Positions 8,597 through 14,207 of a stretch of 21,123 bases of DNA are shown here, in pieces; the first letter of the stretch is position 1; the number at the start of each line of letters is the position of its first letter. The DNA lies in NCBI GenBank assembly GCA_903866485.1, contig CAIPNT010000127.1, positions 1 to 21,123 of the forward strand. The letters run 5' to 3'. Source of the DNA: an uncultured Micrococcales bacterium (lineage in GTDB: Bacteria > Actinomycetota > Actinomycetes > Actinomycetales > Microbacteriaceae). The notes beneath the pieces were generated by a model. That model had not been told where the DNA came from. It saw only the letters and a list, made by a program, of their open reading frames with translations, and searched no databases. The translations under genes and the position numbers were made by a program.

Positions 8597-10066
8597 ATGT
8601 CAGGTGTCAGCGTCTTGGTTTATGCCGAGCGAGTCGGCGGTTCGCTGGGTCACATCGAAAAGCTTCTTCACGGCCCACTGGCCGACTTCAACGGCATCCA
8701 TGTTCTTCCGTTCTTTCACCCATACGACGGCGACGACGCAGGCTTCGACCCAATCGACCACAAAATTGTTGACCCGCGCCTTGGCAACTGGTCAGATTTC
8801 AAGCGCATCTCTGAAACCCACGAGCTAACCGCCGATCTAATCGTTAACCATGCCTCGGCTCTGTCACCAGAGTTCATCGACTGGCAAGAGAAGGGTGACA
8901 AGTCAGATTACGCCGGACTCTTTCTAACCTTCGACACCGTTTTTCCAAACGGCGGCACCGAAGATGGCATCACCTCTTTCTATCGCCCACGCCCGGGAAT
9001 GCCATTCACAGCATATGAGGTAGCCGGCAAGCGCCGCCTAGTGTGGACCACCTTCATGCCATCGCAGGTAGATATCGACATCAAGCACGAAAAGGGCCAG
9101 GCATACCTGCGCTCGGTGCTTGACGCCCTAAAGTCTGGCGGAGTCAAGGTTGTGCGTCTCGACGCCGTTGGCTATGCGGTTAAGACCCCTGGCACCGACT
9201 CTTTCATGACCAAAGAGACCCTCGAGTTTGTTGAAGAGATCGCCGATTTGATTCGCTCGTACGACATGCGCGTCTTGGTTGAGGTGCACGCTCACTACAC
9301 CCAACAGCTCGAGATTGCTCCGCTGGTTGACCTGATCTATGACTTTCAAACCGCCCCGTTGCTGCTGCACTCATTCTTCACTGGCACTGTCGACCGCCTA
9401 GACAACTGGTTCAAGATTCGCCCGGCAAACTGCCTCAACGTGCTTGACACCCACGACGGCTATGGAGTCATCGACGGCGGCCCGATCAATGGTCGCCCAG
9501 GGCTTATCACCCAGGATGAGATGGCCTACATCTTTAAGAAGGCCGAAGAGAACACCAACGGTCACAGCGCCATCGCATCGGTTGTGCCACAGTGGTTCAC
9601 CCTGCCACACCAGATCAACGCGACCCTGCCAAACATCGTGGCCGACGACACCGCCTATGTGATTATGCGCGCGGTTCAGTTCTTCTTGCCTGGTGAACCA
9701 CAGATTTACTATGTTGGTCTGTTCAATGGCATGGATGACGTTGAACTATTCAACAAGACAGGCCAGGGTCGCGACGTAAACCGCCACAACTACACCCCGG
9801 CCGAGATTGACGCTGCTCTGCAGCAGCCGGTCACCAAGGCCATCCTCGGTCTGGCTCGCCTGCGCAAACTATCGGTGTTCAACGGCCAGTTCAGCTGGGC
9901 AGTCACCGGTGGCGACAGCCTGCGTCTCGACTGGATCAGCGGCTCAGACAGCCTGTCGCTCGAGTTCACCACCAAGGTGGGCGCGGCAGACTTCAAGGTT
10001 TCAATCAGCGACGCCAGCAGCACTCGCAGCTATTCGACCATCGAAGAGCTGGGTTCGGCCAACTAA
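8597..10066 (+). CDS. Sucrose phosphorylase-family enzyme (GH13 subfamily 18)
   Basis: A 489-residue enzyme close in length and wording to the Bifidobacterium adolescentis sucrose phosphorylase. It would convert sucrose and phosphate to alpha-glucose-1-phosphate and fructose in the cytoplasm, saving ATP. Catalytic residues by motif are nucleophile D189 (VVRLDAVGY), acid-base E229 (LVEVHAHY) and transition-state stabiliser D287 (VLDTHDGYGVID). LPFFHPYDGDDAGFDPIDH, YRPRPGMPF and AVQFFLPGEPQIYYVGLFNG are also typical. The frame opens at 8492, but the ATG at 8597 follows a perfect AAGGAGG (8586-8592) and gives the family N-terminus, so it is the start. No signal peptide is present. Other GH13_18 specificities (sucrose-6-phosphate, glucosylglycerol or glucosylglycerate phosphorylase) cannot be excluded. 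A phosphatase-family gene follows after 20 bases. Confidence 0.92.
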   Translation: MSGVSVLVYAERVGGSLGHIEKLLHGPLADFNGIHVLPFFHPYDGDDAGFDPIDHKIVDPRLGNWSDFKRISETHELTADLIVNHASALSPEFIDWQEKGDKSDYAGLFLTFDTVFPNGGTEDGITSFYRPRPGMPFTAYEVAGKRRLVWTTFMPSQVDIDIKHEKGQAYLRSVLDALKSGGVKVVRLDAVGYAVKTPGTDSFMTKETLEFVEEIADLIRSYDMRVLVEVHAHYTQQLEIAPLVDLIYDFQTAPLLLHSFFTGTVDRLDNWFKIRPANCLNVLDTHDGYGVIDGGPINGRPGLITQDEMAYIFKKAEENTNGHSAIASVVPQWFTLPHQINATLPNIVADDTAYVIMRAVQFFLPGEPQIYYVGLFNGMDDVELFNKTGQGRDVNRHNYTPAEIDAALQQPVTKAILGLARLRKLSVFNGQFSWAVTGGDSLRLDWISGSDSLSLEFTTKVGAADFKVSISDASSTRSYSTIEELGSAN

Positions 10067-10074
10067 ACTCGCTT

Positions 10075-10080
10075 ACCCTT
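10075..10080 (+). promoter_or_regulatory. Possible -10 box (TACCCT) for leaderless transcription of the phosphatase gene
   Basis: TACCCT fits the actinobacterial TANNNT -10 pattern and ends six bases before the phosphatase ATG at 10087, the spacing expected when transcription starts at the A of the ATG. The only Shine-Dalgarno-like sequence (GAAGG) is one base from the ATG, too close to work normally. The pattern is short and could be chance. Confidence 0.25.
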
Positions 10081-10086
10081 GAAGGT

Positions 10087-10827
10087 ATGAATCTTGATGA
10101 CCTTCTCGAGTGTGCTCTTGCCGCAGCCAACATCGGTGCGGCCGAGCTGAAGCAACGCTTTCGCGGTCCACTGCAAATCAGCTCGAAAACCTCACCCGAA
10201 GATCACGTCACCGACGCCGACCTAGCCTCTGAGGCGATGGTGCGCGCGGCAATCGGCGAGCGCCGACCAAACGACACCATCACCGGCGAAGAGCTGGCAA
10301 ATCAGGTTGGCGAGCACGCTGAGGTTCGCTGGAGCATTGACCCACTAGATGGCACGGTCAACTACACCCGAGGCTTTCCAAACTATTGCACTTCGGTTGG
10401 CGCCGCCTCGGTCGAAACCGGCGAGTGGTTGGTTGGTGCTGTTGTGGCTCCATCGCTTGGCCTCACCTACTATGCCAAGCGGGGCGGTGGCGCGTTTGTG
10501 ATTCGGGATGGGCAGCACATCCAGCTGTTTGGCCCACCGGCAGAACGAGCCACCAAGATTGTTGCCACAGGGTTTTCTTATCAGGCCGAAAAGCGCATTC
10601 CGCAGTTGCAAAAACTGATTGAACTAATGCCAGAGTTTGTTGATATTCGCAGGATGGGTTCTGCCGCGCTTGACATTTGCGCGGTAGCCGAAGGCGCCAT
10701 CGACGCCTACTATGAGGCCGACATCAAAGAGTATGACTGGGCGGCCTCGGCGCTGATCGCTGAGGAGGCAGGGCTAACTGTGCAGCGCCCCGCCTACGTT
10801 GGCGATCTGTGCCACGTCAGGCGCTAG
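10087..10827 (+). CDS. Inositol monophosphatase-family phosphatase, C-terminus probably frameshifted
   Basis: A 246-residue protein of the Mg2+-dependent IMPase/HisN/CysQ family, which hydrolyses small sugar or inositol phosphates. The metal-site motifs are GEE (residues 67-69), WSIDPLDGTVNYTRGFP (DPLDGT) and YDWAASALIAEEAG (the family W-D site, here Y-D-W). The specific substrate (inositol-1-phosphate, histidinol-phosphate, others) cannot be assigned. The end is odd: after AGLTVQRPAYVGD the frame runs DLCHVRR and stops at 10825-10827, whereas one frame over the DNA reads ICATSGASLGVQLEL, which resembles a normal IMPase tail and matches the tail-like sequence in the second repeat copy at 14121-14183. 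A 1-nt insertion or 2-nt deletion near 10791-10812 would explain this. The active-site motifs are untouched, so the protein may still work. Confidence 0.85.
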   Translation: MNLDDLLECALAAANIGAAELKQRFRGPLQISSKTSPEDHVTDADLASEAMVRAAIGERRPNDTITGEELANQVGEHAEVRWSIDPLDGTVNYTRGFPNYCTSVGAASVETGEWLVGAVVAPSLGLTYYAKRGGGAFVIRDGQHIQLFGPPAERATKIVATGFSYQAEKRIPQLQKLIELMPEFVDIRRMGSAALDICAVAEGAIDAYYEADIKEYDWAASALIAEEAGLTVQRPAYVGDLCHVRR

Positions 10828-10871
10828 CCTTGGCGTGCAGCTCGAGCTTTGTATAAAGGTCTTCGAGCAGC
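10813..10871. repeat. Imperfect direct repeat, copy 1 (left flank of surface-protein gene)
   Basis: These 59 bases match 14150-14207 in the same orientation with five substitutions and one 1-nt gap. A further 13-base block (10778-10790 against 14122-14134, one mismatch) extends the match upstream. Read on plus it carries the phosphatase 3' end; read on minus it carries LLEDLYTKLELHAKASA-stop, a C-terminus like that of the nucleoside hydrolase. It abuts the stop codon of the surface-protein gene exactly. Confidence 0.85.
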
Positions 10872-13800
10872 TAGTTAGCCGGCTGGAACCTCAGCGTGGC
10901 AAGTGTCTTGGTCGCGTATCGAACTCGCAAAGTCGTAGCCGGTGCGATCATACGATTGAAAGTTCCGACACCACTTTGGTTGAGTTTTATTGAGCCTAGA
11001 ACACGATATAGACCGTTGTTCTTGACCGAGCTCTCAATGCCAACTCTTTTGTTTGCATAAGCTGCCCCGAGGCTAATCAGAACACTCCTGACCCCGACGA
11101 CAATGGGAACAGCAAGCACGTTCAATTTGACCGGCTTCGAGCTTGAGTGCAGATAGATTTCATCGCCAGCCTTGATAGCAACCACGGCACAAGCTCCGGG
11201 CTTTATACCCTTGACAACGCCGGTGCTCGATACGCTGCAGGTAGCAGGAGTGTTGGATTGGTAGAGCACAACGCCGACACCTGAACCGCCCTTTGAAACC
11301 AAGGCGCTGGTGGCGTTGACATACAAAGTCACAGCCTTTGCACTGACAGTTTGCTGCACTGGTTGTGCTTTTTTCAAACCATACACCGTCAGGTGATTTG
11401 AAAGAATAATCACCGTTCCGTCCTGGTCTAGGTAATAGCCGTCGGTCATGCCACTAGGCAAAACCGATGAAGAAATCATTGGAATTGGCAGCCAAATTAG
11501 CCCATCCTCGGATTTGGCCACCACTAAGGCACCCTTTTGGCTGAGGATGTGAAGCGACATTGGCGATGCCAAACTTTCAACGGGTGCCCCGTTCTTGTCC
11601 AGAATTTCAACTTGAACCGAGACAGCTCCGAGACTAAGAGCCGTGTCATTCGATCTAGGGGTGATGCGCACTTGAGCAGCTGCCCCGCTAACGCCCGACG
11701 GAATAGCCACTTCAACCGGAACCAAGACACCGGTTGCGCCAACCACATTGACGAGCAAGTCTTTCGACTCATCTAGAGCCAGATTCATCGTCAACTTTTG
11801 GCCAATGGTTAGCGTGACGGCAGCCAATGGAATCTTTGTCCACTCGGCATACAACGTTATGTCAGCACCAAACTGATAGATTTCACCCGCATCCAGTTCA
11901 AACCCAGTGTGGTTTGAGGTTGAATTCCAGTCATGAAAGACATATCCAGGTCTAACGAATCCGTTTTGCCTAACGGCAGCTGGACCATTGCTGGTCTGCG
12001 TTTCGGTTGAACCTGAGGCGGCTCCGTTGCCAAGGAAGGTTATGGTGTGACTGCCAGAGTTGCCTCCACCGATTGGTGCGGGATATTCCCACATCGCATA
12101 GAGAGTTGTATCTGAATCGAAGGAATAGGTCGTGGCGTCGTCATAACTGCTGCCGGAACCATCGATTGCAGTGTTCCACTCGTCAAAAACATATCCGGTT
12201 TTGGAAAAGCTGTTTGCCTGCAAGGTTGCCGAACCGGCGTGAATCTGGCTTGACATGGTTCCGCTGGTTGCGCCATTACCGTTGAAAGTAACGGTGTGCG
12301 CAACCGGAGGAAGGGCAACCCACTGCGCATAAAGAGTCACATCGGCGTCGAATTCATAGATTGAATCATCCGCATAGAAAGTGCCGCCGGTGGTGGCGCT
12401 GGTTGACCAACCCTGAAACGTGTATCCCGTTTTCGAGAACGCATTGACGTTCAAGGGCGTCTTCAGGTCAGCGGTTTGAACATCCATGTTTCCGCCAGTC
12501 GCCTGGTTTCCGTTGAAAGTGACTCTATGCGCCGATGCATATCGAACAAATCCACTGAAAGTCTGCGAGTAGGTGCTTGGTGATGCTTGGGCAACCGTTG
12601 ACGTGATCGTGAACGAGTAGGGGCCAGATGAAGTAGGTGTGCCCGACACGTAAGGGTCGCCACCACCGCCCTTGCCACCGCTGGTCAAGTTGACCGCGAG
12701 GTCAGGGATGAGTGCAGAACTAGAGATCGAGAAGGTGCCTCTGTCGCCATCGGTGCGAATGCCAACGCCCAGGGTGTCAGAGTAAGGATCATCGGCTATT
12801 GGAGAACCGACGGTCAGGTCTCCGAAGGTAGCGATGCCAGAAACCAGGGGTTGCAAGAATCTAGTTGGGGTTCCTGGAGCCTCTGAAATCGAGAAGTCAA
12901 AATATGCTGACCGTCGCTGGGAGTCATAGACGTGCAATCGCATTTGATAGGTTCCGGGGGCGATGCAGTTCCACGCAGCATCATTCTGGTAGGTGCCAGT
13001 CTGCACCTCTAGAGCTCGATAAATAACTCCGGCTGGAGGTGTTGGCGCCCAGGATGGCGCTGAACTGCTTATGGTAACTGCCGGGCCGTTTTGACAACTG
13101 GTGTTTAGGTCGTTGTTTATCGAATTGAATGAACCATCCGAGTAAAAGGGAAAGTTCGCAACTATTGCGTAGCCGGTCTGCGGCGGATTATCGCCGAAAC
13201 CCGTCAATGCAATGAGCGTGTTCACTCCAAAACCATCCGGCGAGGTGTGAGTGAAGTGGGTTGCGGTCACGGTGTTGATCTGGTTGCTTGCCGTCGCATC
13301 AAACATAGCCACGGACGGAGTCACCACTGGCTCGGAATAGCTGAACGCACCAGCAGATCGAAGCCTCGAGCCATCTGGATTTCGAATAATTAGGGTCACT
13401 TGACCAGGCGTTGAGTAGGCCGGCATGATTGCACTTATTCGAGTGCTAGTCGCCGAAAGAACCGTCAAATAGTCAGGCGTGCCAGCATCGTCTACCGCCA
13501 CCGTTACCTGACTATCAAAGCCCGTGCCAACGATGGTGACCACCTGGCCACCAAGCGTTGAACCGGTTGGCGGGTCAATCGTGTCAAGCGTCGGCCGGCA
13601 AAGAGAGTCGATCAGCCCAACCACCGTCTGCGAGTCGTGGTCTGGGTCGATCGGCGATGCAATGATGAAGCGATCGTTGAAGACGGCAGTCGGGGTTCCT
13701 GAAATAATTCCGGTCTGGCTATTAAGAGATAGCCCGGCCGGCAGTTGGCCGGCTAAGACGCTGAATTGGCCGTCATCCGTGCCATCATCTGGCATTGATA

Positions 13801-13993
13801 CGAATGGATCAATTGGCTGACCCACGCAGCCATAAAGCGAGTCTTGGTTCCATGGTGACGAAGAGGCGCTGGCTGGCTGAACCGGCTCAAAGGGTGAAAC
13901 CACAGAGAGCGCCAGACCTATGAGAGCGATTGCCCCAACAGTTTTTGCCGCAAATAATTTCACTGGACGGATTGCTTTTGATTCGTGAGACAT
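10871..13993 (-). CDS. Large secreted surface protein with IPT/TIG and three InlB-type (Flg_new) repeats
   Basis: A 1040-residue exported protein. A signal peptide spans about residues 1-43 (basic start, hydrophobic AKTVGAIALIGLALSVVS, cleavage near ASA). Residues 75-112 resemble a putative-Ig (He_PIG) module (LPAGLSLNSQTGIISGTP). IPT/TIG-like sequence occupies about 135-222 (GSTLGGQVVTIVGTGFDSQ). Three InlB B-type repeats lie at about 488-558, 565-635 and 648-718, each running from a VTFNGN-like strand through SKTGYxFxxW to LYAxW. The remaining 320 residues are beta-rich, Ig-like and unrecognised. There is no LPXTG or C-terminal membrane anchor, so attachment is unclear. The ATG at 13993 follows GGAAGGTGGG. 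The gene is bracketed by a 59-bp direct repeat and has an iron box about 95 bases upstream, suggesting an acquired, possibly iron-controlled adhesin or binding protein; the function is inferred only. Confidence 0.85.
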   Translation of the reverse strand: MSHESKAIRPVKLFAAKTVGAIALIGLALSVVSPFEPVQPASASSSPWNQDSLYGCVGQPIDPFVSMPDDGTDDGQFSVLAGQLPAGLSLNSQTGIISGTPTAVFNDRFIIASPIDPDHDSQTVVGLIDSLCRPTLDTIDPPTGSTLGGQVVTIVGTGFDSQVTVAVDDAGTPDYLTVLSATSTRISAIMPAYSTPGQVTLIIRNPDGSRLRSAGAFSYSEPVVTPSVAMFDATASNQINTVTATHFTHTSPDGFGVNTLIALTGFGDNPPQTGYAIVANFPFYSDGSFNSINNDLNTSCQNGPAVTISSSAPSWAPTPPAGVIYRALEVQTGTYQNDAAWNCIAPGTYQMRLHVYDSQRRSAYFDFSISEAPGTPTRFLQPLVSGIATFGDLTVGSPIADDPYSDTLGVGIRTDGDRGTFSISSSALIPDLAVNLTSGGKGGGGDPYVSGTPTSSGPYSFTITSTVAQASPSTYSQTFSGFVRYASAHRVTFNGNQATGGNMDVQTADLKTPLNVNAFSKTGYTFQGWSTSATTGGTFYADDSIYEFDADVTLYAQWVALPPVAHTVTFNGNGATSGTMSSQIHAGSATLQANSFSKTGYVFDEWNTAIDGSGSSYDDATTYSFDSDTTLYAMWEYPAPIGGGNSGSHTITFLGNGAASGSTETQTSNGPAAVRQNGFVRPGYVFHDWNSTSNHTGFELDAGEIYQFGADITLYAEWTKIPLAAVTLTIGQKLTMNLALDESKDLLVNVVGATGVLVPVEVAIPSGVSGAAAQVRITPRSNDTALSLGAVSVQVEILDKNGAPVESLASPMSLHILSQKGALVVAKSEDGLIWLPIPMISSSVLPSGMTDGYYLDQDGTVIILSNHLTVYGLKKAQPVQQTVSAKAVTLYVNATSALVSKGGSGVGVVLYQSNTPATCSVSSTGVVKGIKPGACAVVAIKAGDEIYLHSSSKPVKLNVLAVPIVVGVRSVLISLGAAYANKRVGIESSVKNNGLYRVLGSIKLNQSGVGTFNRMIAPATTLRVRYATKTLATLRFQPAN

Positions 13994-14085
13994 AGTCCCA
14001 CCTTCCCCGGCGTTAGCAATCGATAAGTTTCAGTTGCCTTTTATGCCTTAAAGCGAACCTACTCTCTATTTGATTGAGTGCAAAC

Positions 14086-14104
14086 CTAGGCAAGCCTTAC
14101 CTAA
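14086..14104 (-). promoter_or_regulatory. DtxR/IdeR-type iron box upstream of the surface-protein gene
   Basis: CTAGGCAAGCCTTACCTAA matches 16 of 19 positions of the DtxR/IdeR consensus TWAGGTTAGSCTWACCTWA, and its two arms (TAGGCAAG / CTTACCTA) are inverted with one mismatch around a central C. It lies 93-111 bases upstream of the ATG at 13993; no other gene start is close. Such sites are normally bound by the Fe2+-loaded regulator, giving derepression under iron limitation. Confidence 0.65.
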
Positions 14105-14120
14105 TTTTTTTGAATTTGAT

Positions 14121-14183
14121 GCTGTGCACCGCCCGGTGACGACCATTGTCACGTTAGGCGCGAGCTTTGGCGTGCAGCTCTAG
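14121..14183 (+). pseudogene. Remnant of the phosphatase gene 3' end, displaced from 10778-10871
   Basis: Reading plus from 14121 gives AVHRPVTTIVTLGASFGVQL and a TAG at 14181-14183, with no start codon or upstream gene body. It corresponds to the C-terminal tail expected for the phosphatase at 10087-10827 (TVQRP..., then ATSGASLGVQL in the shifted frame). It overlaps the nucleoside hydrolase 3' end on the other strand by four bases. It is read here as the second copy of a duplicated gene junction. Confidence 0.6.
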
Positions 14184-14207
14184 CTTTGCATAAGGTCTTC
14201 GAGCAGC
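14150..14207. repeat. Imperfect direct repeat, copy 2 (right flank of surface-protein gene)
   Basis: 58 bases matching 10813-10871 with five substitutions; the gap is a missing A near 14192 (ATAAGG here, ATAAAGG in copy 1). On minus it forms the actual 3' end of the nucleoside hydrolase gene. Restoring the missing base would extend that protein to LLEDLYAKLELHAKARA-stop, nearly identical to the reading in copy 1. Confidence 0.85.

Follow-up and report, generated by a model that had tools for sequence, protein, structure and literature searches.

A surface-protein gene flanked by two copies of a convergent gene junction in a small actinobacterium: probable capture with long target duplication

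How can a single gene, with no transposase beside it, come to lie inside a duplicated junction between two other genes? The question is raised by a contig of 21,123 bases (C127; the whole contig was analyzed and is referred to here as the window) from the draft genome of a small, freshwater-type actinobacterium, most likely a Rhodoluna. In the window, a gene encoding a surface protein of 1,040 residues lies between an inositol-monophosphatase-family gene (IMP) and a nucleoside hydrolase gene (NH) and is bordered at each end by a copy of one and the same sequence, in which the 3′ end of IMP appears to meet the 3′ end of NH. The draft is incomplete (1.08 Mb in 192 contigs, 67% complete). The answer that we consider probable is that the surface gene arrived once, as part of a block captured at an ancestral convergent IMP-NH junction, by insertion with a long duplication of the target.

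The repeated junction

An earlier note, made from the sequence alone, had described a 59-bp direct repeat (10813-10871 and 14150-14207) whose copies differ by five substitutions and a gap of 1 nt. Alignment confirmed this core, in which 5 of 58 aligned positions differ between the copies, and showed that the match reaches farther left, to 10781 and 14120, where it comprises 74 identical columns out of 91 (81%) and includes a second gap, of 2 nt. The two copies gave a local alignment score of 94, compared with a maximum of 31 among 280 random pairs of window pieces. No third copy was found in the organism's own 67%-complete assembly, which besides the two copies yielded one 29-base match at E 1.04. 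Against any stretch fetched from 13 relatives, the 3′ copy scored no higher than 29. The 3′ copy thus resembles the 5′ copy much more closely than it does the relatives, implying that the two are copies of one lineage's junction.

An incomplete draft in many contigs could also contain two strains, or two places in one genome, wrongly joined during metagenome assembly. We regard such an artefact as very improbable. The longest exact stretch common to both copies is 16 nt, the open reading frame of the surface gene is intact and stops at the repeat, and both flanks match the neighborhood of a relative (IMP on the left and CtaG plus polysaccharide deacetylase on the right, as in genome G006).

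A terminator or other structured element was ruled out as the reason for the repeat, since only the 5′ copy folds somewhat better than shuffled sequences (plus strand, z −2.25, with 7 of 200 shuffles as good; minus strand, z −1.47, with 16 of 200), whereas the 3′ copy folds no better than they do (z 0.19 and 0.36). Scans of the locus for promoters and terminators gave no excess. On the plus strand of window positions 10808-10876, the 5′ copy can form two hairpins between the convergent IMP and surface genes.

Each copy had been said to encode the C termini of both neighbors. For the 5′ copy this proved correct. Its IMP end is intact, with the last codons CHVRR (..GDLCHVRR) and a stop at 10825-10827, and close IMP homologs terminate ..GDLCHVRL(V). 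On the minus strand it carries 17 codons of NH, LLEDLYTKLELHAKASA, followed by a stop at 10819-10817; this is an end of the full-length type and matches the C-terminal pattern of NH homologs (..LLEDLYAKLELHA..). The IMP and NH ends overlap by 11 nt in this copy, and the stop codon of the surface gene begins at the end of the NH remnant, base 10871 being common to the stop codon and the repeat.

For the 3′ copy the statement needs amending, because there NH is shortened and the IMP part lacks an in-frame stop. The NH of the window ends ...LLEDLMQS, the 1-nt gap of the 3′ copy having shifted the frame to an early stop, and it retains 9 residues after its D-x-R motif, as opposed to at least 15 in all 119 of the homologs listed (counting from the first D-x-R within the last 40 residues, a count with which 60 printed homolog ends agree). 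The shortening of the C terminus may be genuine or may stem from a fault in the assembly. On its left, the NH end is bordered by a degraded IMP end, which the 2-nt gap interrupts. When the CACGT of the core was included, its score was equaled by 1 of 100,000 shuffles and 1 of 20,845 window pieces; when CACGT was left out, the figures were 24 of 20,000 and 12 of 20,845. The stretch can therefore be read with moderate confidence as an IMP remnant. If it is so accepted, both copies hold both gene ends, and IMP and NH would once have touched, convergent and overlapping.

This remnant bears on an alternative without ancestral contact, in which the surface gene has always lain between IMP and NH and the end of IMP received an ectopic copy of about 59 bp from the NH 3′ end. 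In favor of such a copying event, the strong part of the repeat is mostly NH coding, surface-type genes directly follow IMP in 4 of 11 relatives, IMP and NH are adjacent in no other locus that we saw, and the IMP-like stretch of the 3′ copy is only moderately significant when compared with the IMP ends of relatives. Ectopic copying does not, however, predict IMP-like sequence to the left of the NH end in the 3′ copy, at the significance given above with or without CACGT, and we consider it unlikely.

The surface-protein gene and its block

The surface protein appears from its N terminus to be secreted. It has 15 homologs that align along its length at 42 to 61% identity, four of them without a middle stretch; all 15 are known from the protein database alone, without genomic context. 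The proposal that the gene is an insert was borne out insofar as no full-length ortholog was found in 66 other genomes of the genus, many of which are incomplete. Matches to the protein occurred in 40 of these 66 genomes; those listed fell mostly in the InlB-type repeats, the rest being short matches elsewhere in the protein. A search for a home taxon, with the last 316 residues as the query, returned only short or 30%-identical matches in 398 genomes of the family, 394 of the class, and 22 of one other genus of the same family, these sets being samples that possibly overlap. The G+C content at third codon positions (GC3) is 0.546 in the surface gene and 0.593 to 0.713 in 11 other genes of the contig. 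The absent orthologs and the low GC3 fit a recent arrival of the gene without proving it. Among solved structures, the protein had 14 matches, all to single short domains, including a serine-rich adhesin, HGF-receptor, plexin, and dynein heavy chains (in the TIG region), and the B-repeats of internalin B.

Several vehicles for such an arrival were considered. Cargo of a phage or plasmid was rejected, the matches in 4 phage and 10 plasmid records being below 60% identity and covering at most 30% of the query, and one scan of viral contigs revealed no relative of the surface gene. As the earlier note had stated, there is no transposase or integrase: a Pfam search of 17 proteins of the contig found no transposase, integrase, or recombinase domain. 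No inverted repeats of 20 nt or more were found across the ends of the insert, and its terminal 60 nt gave a score of 8, which was reached by 500 of 500 shuffles. An insertion sequence or composite transposon was rejected on the grounds that terminal inverted repeats are lacking and that the duplication is about 90 bp and not short.

Integrative elements typically insert at the 3′ ends of genes and duplicate that end. The repeats might accordingly be the attL and attR sites of a small integrative element that restored the IMP end and whose integrase is now gone, an origin that the earlier note had entertained as att-like recombination and with which the variability of the spot after IMP in the genus would agree. 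We think it highly unlikely. No integrase domain was found among 17 contig proteins, the cargo would be one gene, and the longest exact stretch that the copies have in common is only 16 nt. In place of an identical, recurring crossover core, the core copies differ by five substitutions and a gap, and no repeat of the IMP end recurs in the stretches fetched from 11 relatives.

A candidate iron box

Within the inserted block, 92 nt before the start codon of the surface gene, lies the sequence TTAGGTAAGGCTTGCCTAG, which we take to be a DtxR/IdeR-type operator on the basis of a consensus pattern that was relaxed until it fitted this sequence. An 18-letter pattern of the box, allowed up to 2 mismatches, occurred at two places in the organism's own assembly. 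One is the site in the window, and the other (L177:5882-5915, on contig C90) lies between divergent genes, just before a gene for an FTR1-family iron permease. A reversed control pattern had no match in the same assembly, and none of 20 shuffled windows contained a box within 2 mismatches. Under a 19-letter pattern, 1 mismatch was counted in the window's box and 3 and 4 in the two overlapping sites before the permease gene. Shuffled windows averaged 1.6 matches at up to 4 mismatches, a level that makes the permease sites weaker than the window's box. At 3 mismatches or fewer, no box was found in the stretches fetched from 13 relatives, in which some surface genes are cut at their start.

The genome also encodes a DtxR-family protein (PF02742 match, E 7.9e-28), so that a predicted operator box upstream of the gene and a DtxR-family regulator are both present. 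In these respects, and in the operator-like box before the FTR1 permease gene, the locus resembles, at the level of sequence, the DtxR/IdeR iron regulon of actinobacteria. The surface gene may possibly be induced under iron scarcity, although DtxR-family proteins can also sense manganese. A literature search for DtxR together with InlB B-repeats found no paper.

Weighing a single capture

We infer the ancestral gene order, the direction of the change (insertion, not rearrangement), the process, and the iron regulation as follows. In the ancestor, IMP and NH would have been convergent, with an overlap of their 3′ ends like the one of 11 nt in the 5′ copy. At this junction, a block of about 3.25 kb, of foreign or ectopic origin and consisting of the surface gene, its own upstream region, and the iron box, would have been captured by a process that was probably illegitimate. 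Examples of such a process are a staggered or recopied break, a switch of template, and homology-facilitated illegitimate recombination involving DNA that had been taken up. As a result, IMP would have stayed whole at the left copy and NH would have been kept at the right one, each copy also containing the dead end of the other gene. The rival explanations each seem to us less simple than this single capture.

Several points count against it. The most direct is the lack of an uninterrupted junction. Orthologs of IMP (at least 56% identity) are present in 12 of the 66 other genomes of the genus, and NH is present in 5 (G001, G006, G014, G068, and G069). We fetched 80 NH loci from the genus, the order, and the family and by a genome-wide scan; at least 7 of these duplicate another locus of the set or are that of the window itself, 10 have less than 500 bases of 3′ flank (that of G014 among them), and many others have about 1.5 kb. 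None of the 80 has IMP adjacent to NH. IMP is present in one of them (L108, in G006), 6.2 kb away and with several genes between. The nearest relative by IMP, G004, has 92% protein identity, with 60 of 128 fourfold sites identical, and NH was not found in it.

The convergent ancestral pair proposed in the earlier note therefore stands in part: in each copy the 3′ ends of IMP and NH are joined, but the uninterrupted pair was not found. That note had looked to relatives in which the two genes are adjacent and overlapping and had named their absence elsewhere among the findings that would speak against it; none was seen in the 80 loci. This counterevidence is weak, because NH is present in so few genomes of the genus and the nearest relative by IMP is distant. 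All of the relatives at hand are too distant to reveal an empty site, and the capture, though supported in its core, is unproven. Dating of the event by divergence was abandoned, the nearest relative being near saturation at fourfold sites.

The other points concern the copies and the block. Divergence between the copies is greater on the IMP side (9 of 30 positions and the 2-nt gap) than in the core (5 of 58 and the 1-nt gap; Fisher P = 0.014). Unequal or relaxed constraint on the remnant could explain this difference, and the left border of the duplication is uncertain. When the IMP remnant was compared with the IMP ends of G004, G063, G027, and G006, 28, 63, 57, and 20 of 5,000 shuffles, respectively, were as good. 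Fast evolution, in place of a foreign origin, could account for the low GC3 of the surface gene. Finally, no donor site for the block was found, and the genomes searched are partly incomplete.

The variable spot after IMP

The 3′ side of IMP is visible in 11 relatives; that of a twelfth (G078) is cut by a contig end. In 4 of the 11 (loci L038, L041, L047, and L048), the next gene after IMP, in convergent position, is of a surface type: the encoded proteins have fn3 domains in G006 and G063 and InlB-type repeats in G007, and in G088 a laminin-G-like protein is followed by an InlB-repeat protein. The other seven have a dienelactone hydrolase, a polysaccharide deacetylase (on the IMP strand), a PIN protein, or genes that had no Pfam match or were not tested. 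In none of the 11, over downstream stretches of 0.9 to 11 kb, was a repeat of the IMP end found; the best direct scores were 20 to 28, near those of shuffles, compared with 94 in the window. The spot after IMP is thus open to change, and the scar of a duplicated junction is seen only in the window.

Strong variation in the surroundings of IMP among relatives shows that rearrangements are common here, and it is in keeping with another route to the same final order that involves no insertion. A segment carrying IMP, NH, and the surface gene would have been duplicated in tandem, after which most of the first NH, the second IMP, and the second surface gene would have been lost. We doubt this history. 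It calls for at least three events, with breakpoints that spared the coding ends of both outer genes, and no other trace of extra copies was found in the assembly.

Returning to a single capture, we note that recombination between the two copies could possibly delete the surface gene cleanly. Taken further, the spot after IMP might be a transposase-free exchange spot in Rhodoluna, into which cassettes of a gene plus its operator are swapped by junction-duplicating illegitimate recombination and from which recombination between the scars deletes them again, such that cells of one population differ in an iron-controlled surface protein. We put this forward as speculation with a small chance of being right.

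Comparison with known kinds of insertion

Insertion with long target duplication is described for restriction-modification genes of Helicobacter pylori in passages of three papers (PMC1643837, PMC3031569, and PMC3154945), which credit it to Nobusato et al. (2000). As in the cases outlined there, a block at our locus lies between long direct repeats of the target and no transposon was found. The copies are 88 to 91 bp long and include the ends of both NH and IMP, with moderate support for IMP in the 3′ copy; no transposase or integrase domain was found among 17 contig proteins, and no inverted repeat at the ends of the insert. Unlike in the H. pylori cases, as far as those passages go, the cargo is a surface-protein gene in place of a restriction-modification system, the bacterium is a small actinobacterium of freshwater type, and no close genome shows the empty target.

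Homology-facilitated illegitimate recombination is known from natural transformation and has also been proposed for effector-immunity arrays of Vibrio (PMC5361080; see also PMC3240628). The locus would share with it the capture of a foreign gene beside a homologous anchor and the displaced or orphaned gene parts left behind; it differs in that no donor sequence was found. It is a plausible process here. Part of the account of Woodhouse et al. (2010) describes transposed plant genes, which are single genes flanked by direct repeats of more than 30 bp that are often genic and often match the orthologous target site. These are like our locus in their flanking genic direct repeats and unlike it in being eukaryotic. 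Among the literature matches on the mechanism and on Rhodoluna, partly the best matches only, no title or abstract opening described this locus.

If the capture is real, insertion with long target duplication is not confined to restriction-modification systems and can bring a single surface-protein gene into an actinobacterium with a small genome. Such cargo, as the iron box suggests, may come with its own control. The scar also supplies a rule for searching other genomes, namely, to look for convergent neighbors whose 3′ ends recur on both sides of an insert. What is new at the locus is the unusual cargo and host for a known kind of insertion, an insert with a DtxR/IdeR-type iron box, and the finding of surface-type genes after IMP in relatives.

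Coordinates and neighboring genes

Positions of the features are collected in Table 1.

Table 1. Features of the IMP-NH locus, in window coordinates
Feature	Position	Strand	Evidence
Inositol-monophosphatase-family gene (IMP)	10087..10827	+	Pfam Inositol_P, E 3e-52
Surface-protein gene, 1,040 aa	10871..13993	-	Pfam He_PIG, TIG, three Flg_new/InlB B-repeats
Nucleoside hydrolase gene (NH), 315 aa	14180..15127	-	Pfam IU_nuc_hydro, E 1e-6, below curated cutoff
5′ copy of duplicated junction	10781..10871		Aligns with 14120-14207; core 10813-10871
3′ copy of junction	14120..14207		Core 14150-14207; putative IMP remnant 14120-14154 plus NH end
NH C-terminal remnant in 5′ copy	10870-10817	-	LLEDLYTKLELHAKASA plus stop, by translation
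Inserted block (inferred), surface gene plus upstream region	10872..14119		Bounded by both repeat copies
Candidate DtxR/IdeR-type iron box TTAGGTAAGGCTTGCCTAG	14086..14104	-	Pattern search of own genome

The gene order around the insert is RlmN (−), a sucrose-phosphorylase-like enzyme (+), IMP (+), the surface protein (−), NH (−), an esterase (+), CtaG (−), and a polysaccharide deacetylase (+). Among the homologs of NH, some carry the name purine nucleosidase or inosine-uridine nucleoside N-ribohydrolase. The listed homologs include NH proteins with 90% and 88% identity (P0002 and P0003) and an IMP protein with 92% identity (P0122). Four loci of relatives (L038, L039, L041, and L042) have a block of about 2.6 to 2.8 kb with an ABC-transporter ATPase between the sucrose-phosphorylase-like gene and IMP, which the window lacks (10066-10087). 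In L038, the block before IMP also contains, by reading, a BioY-like gene and a TetR-like gene.

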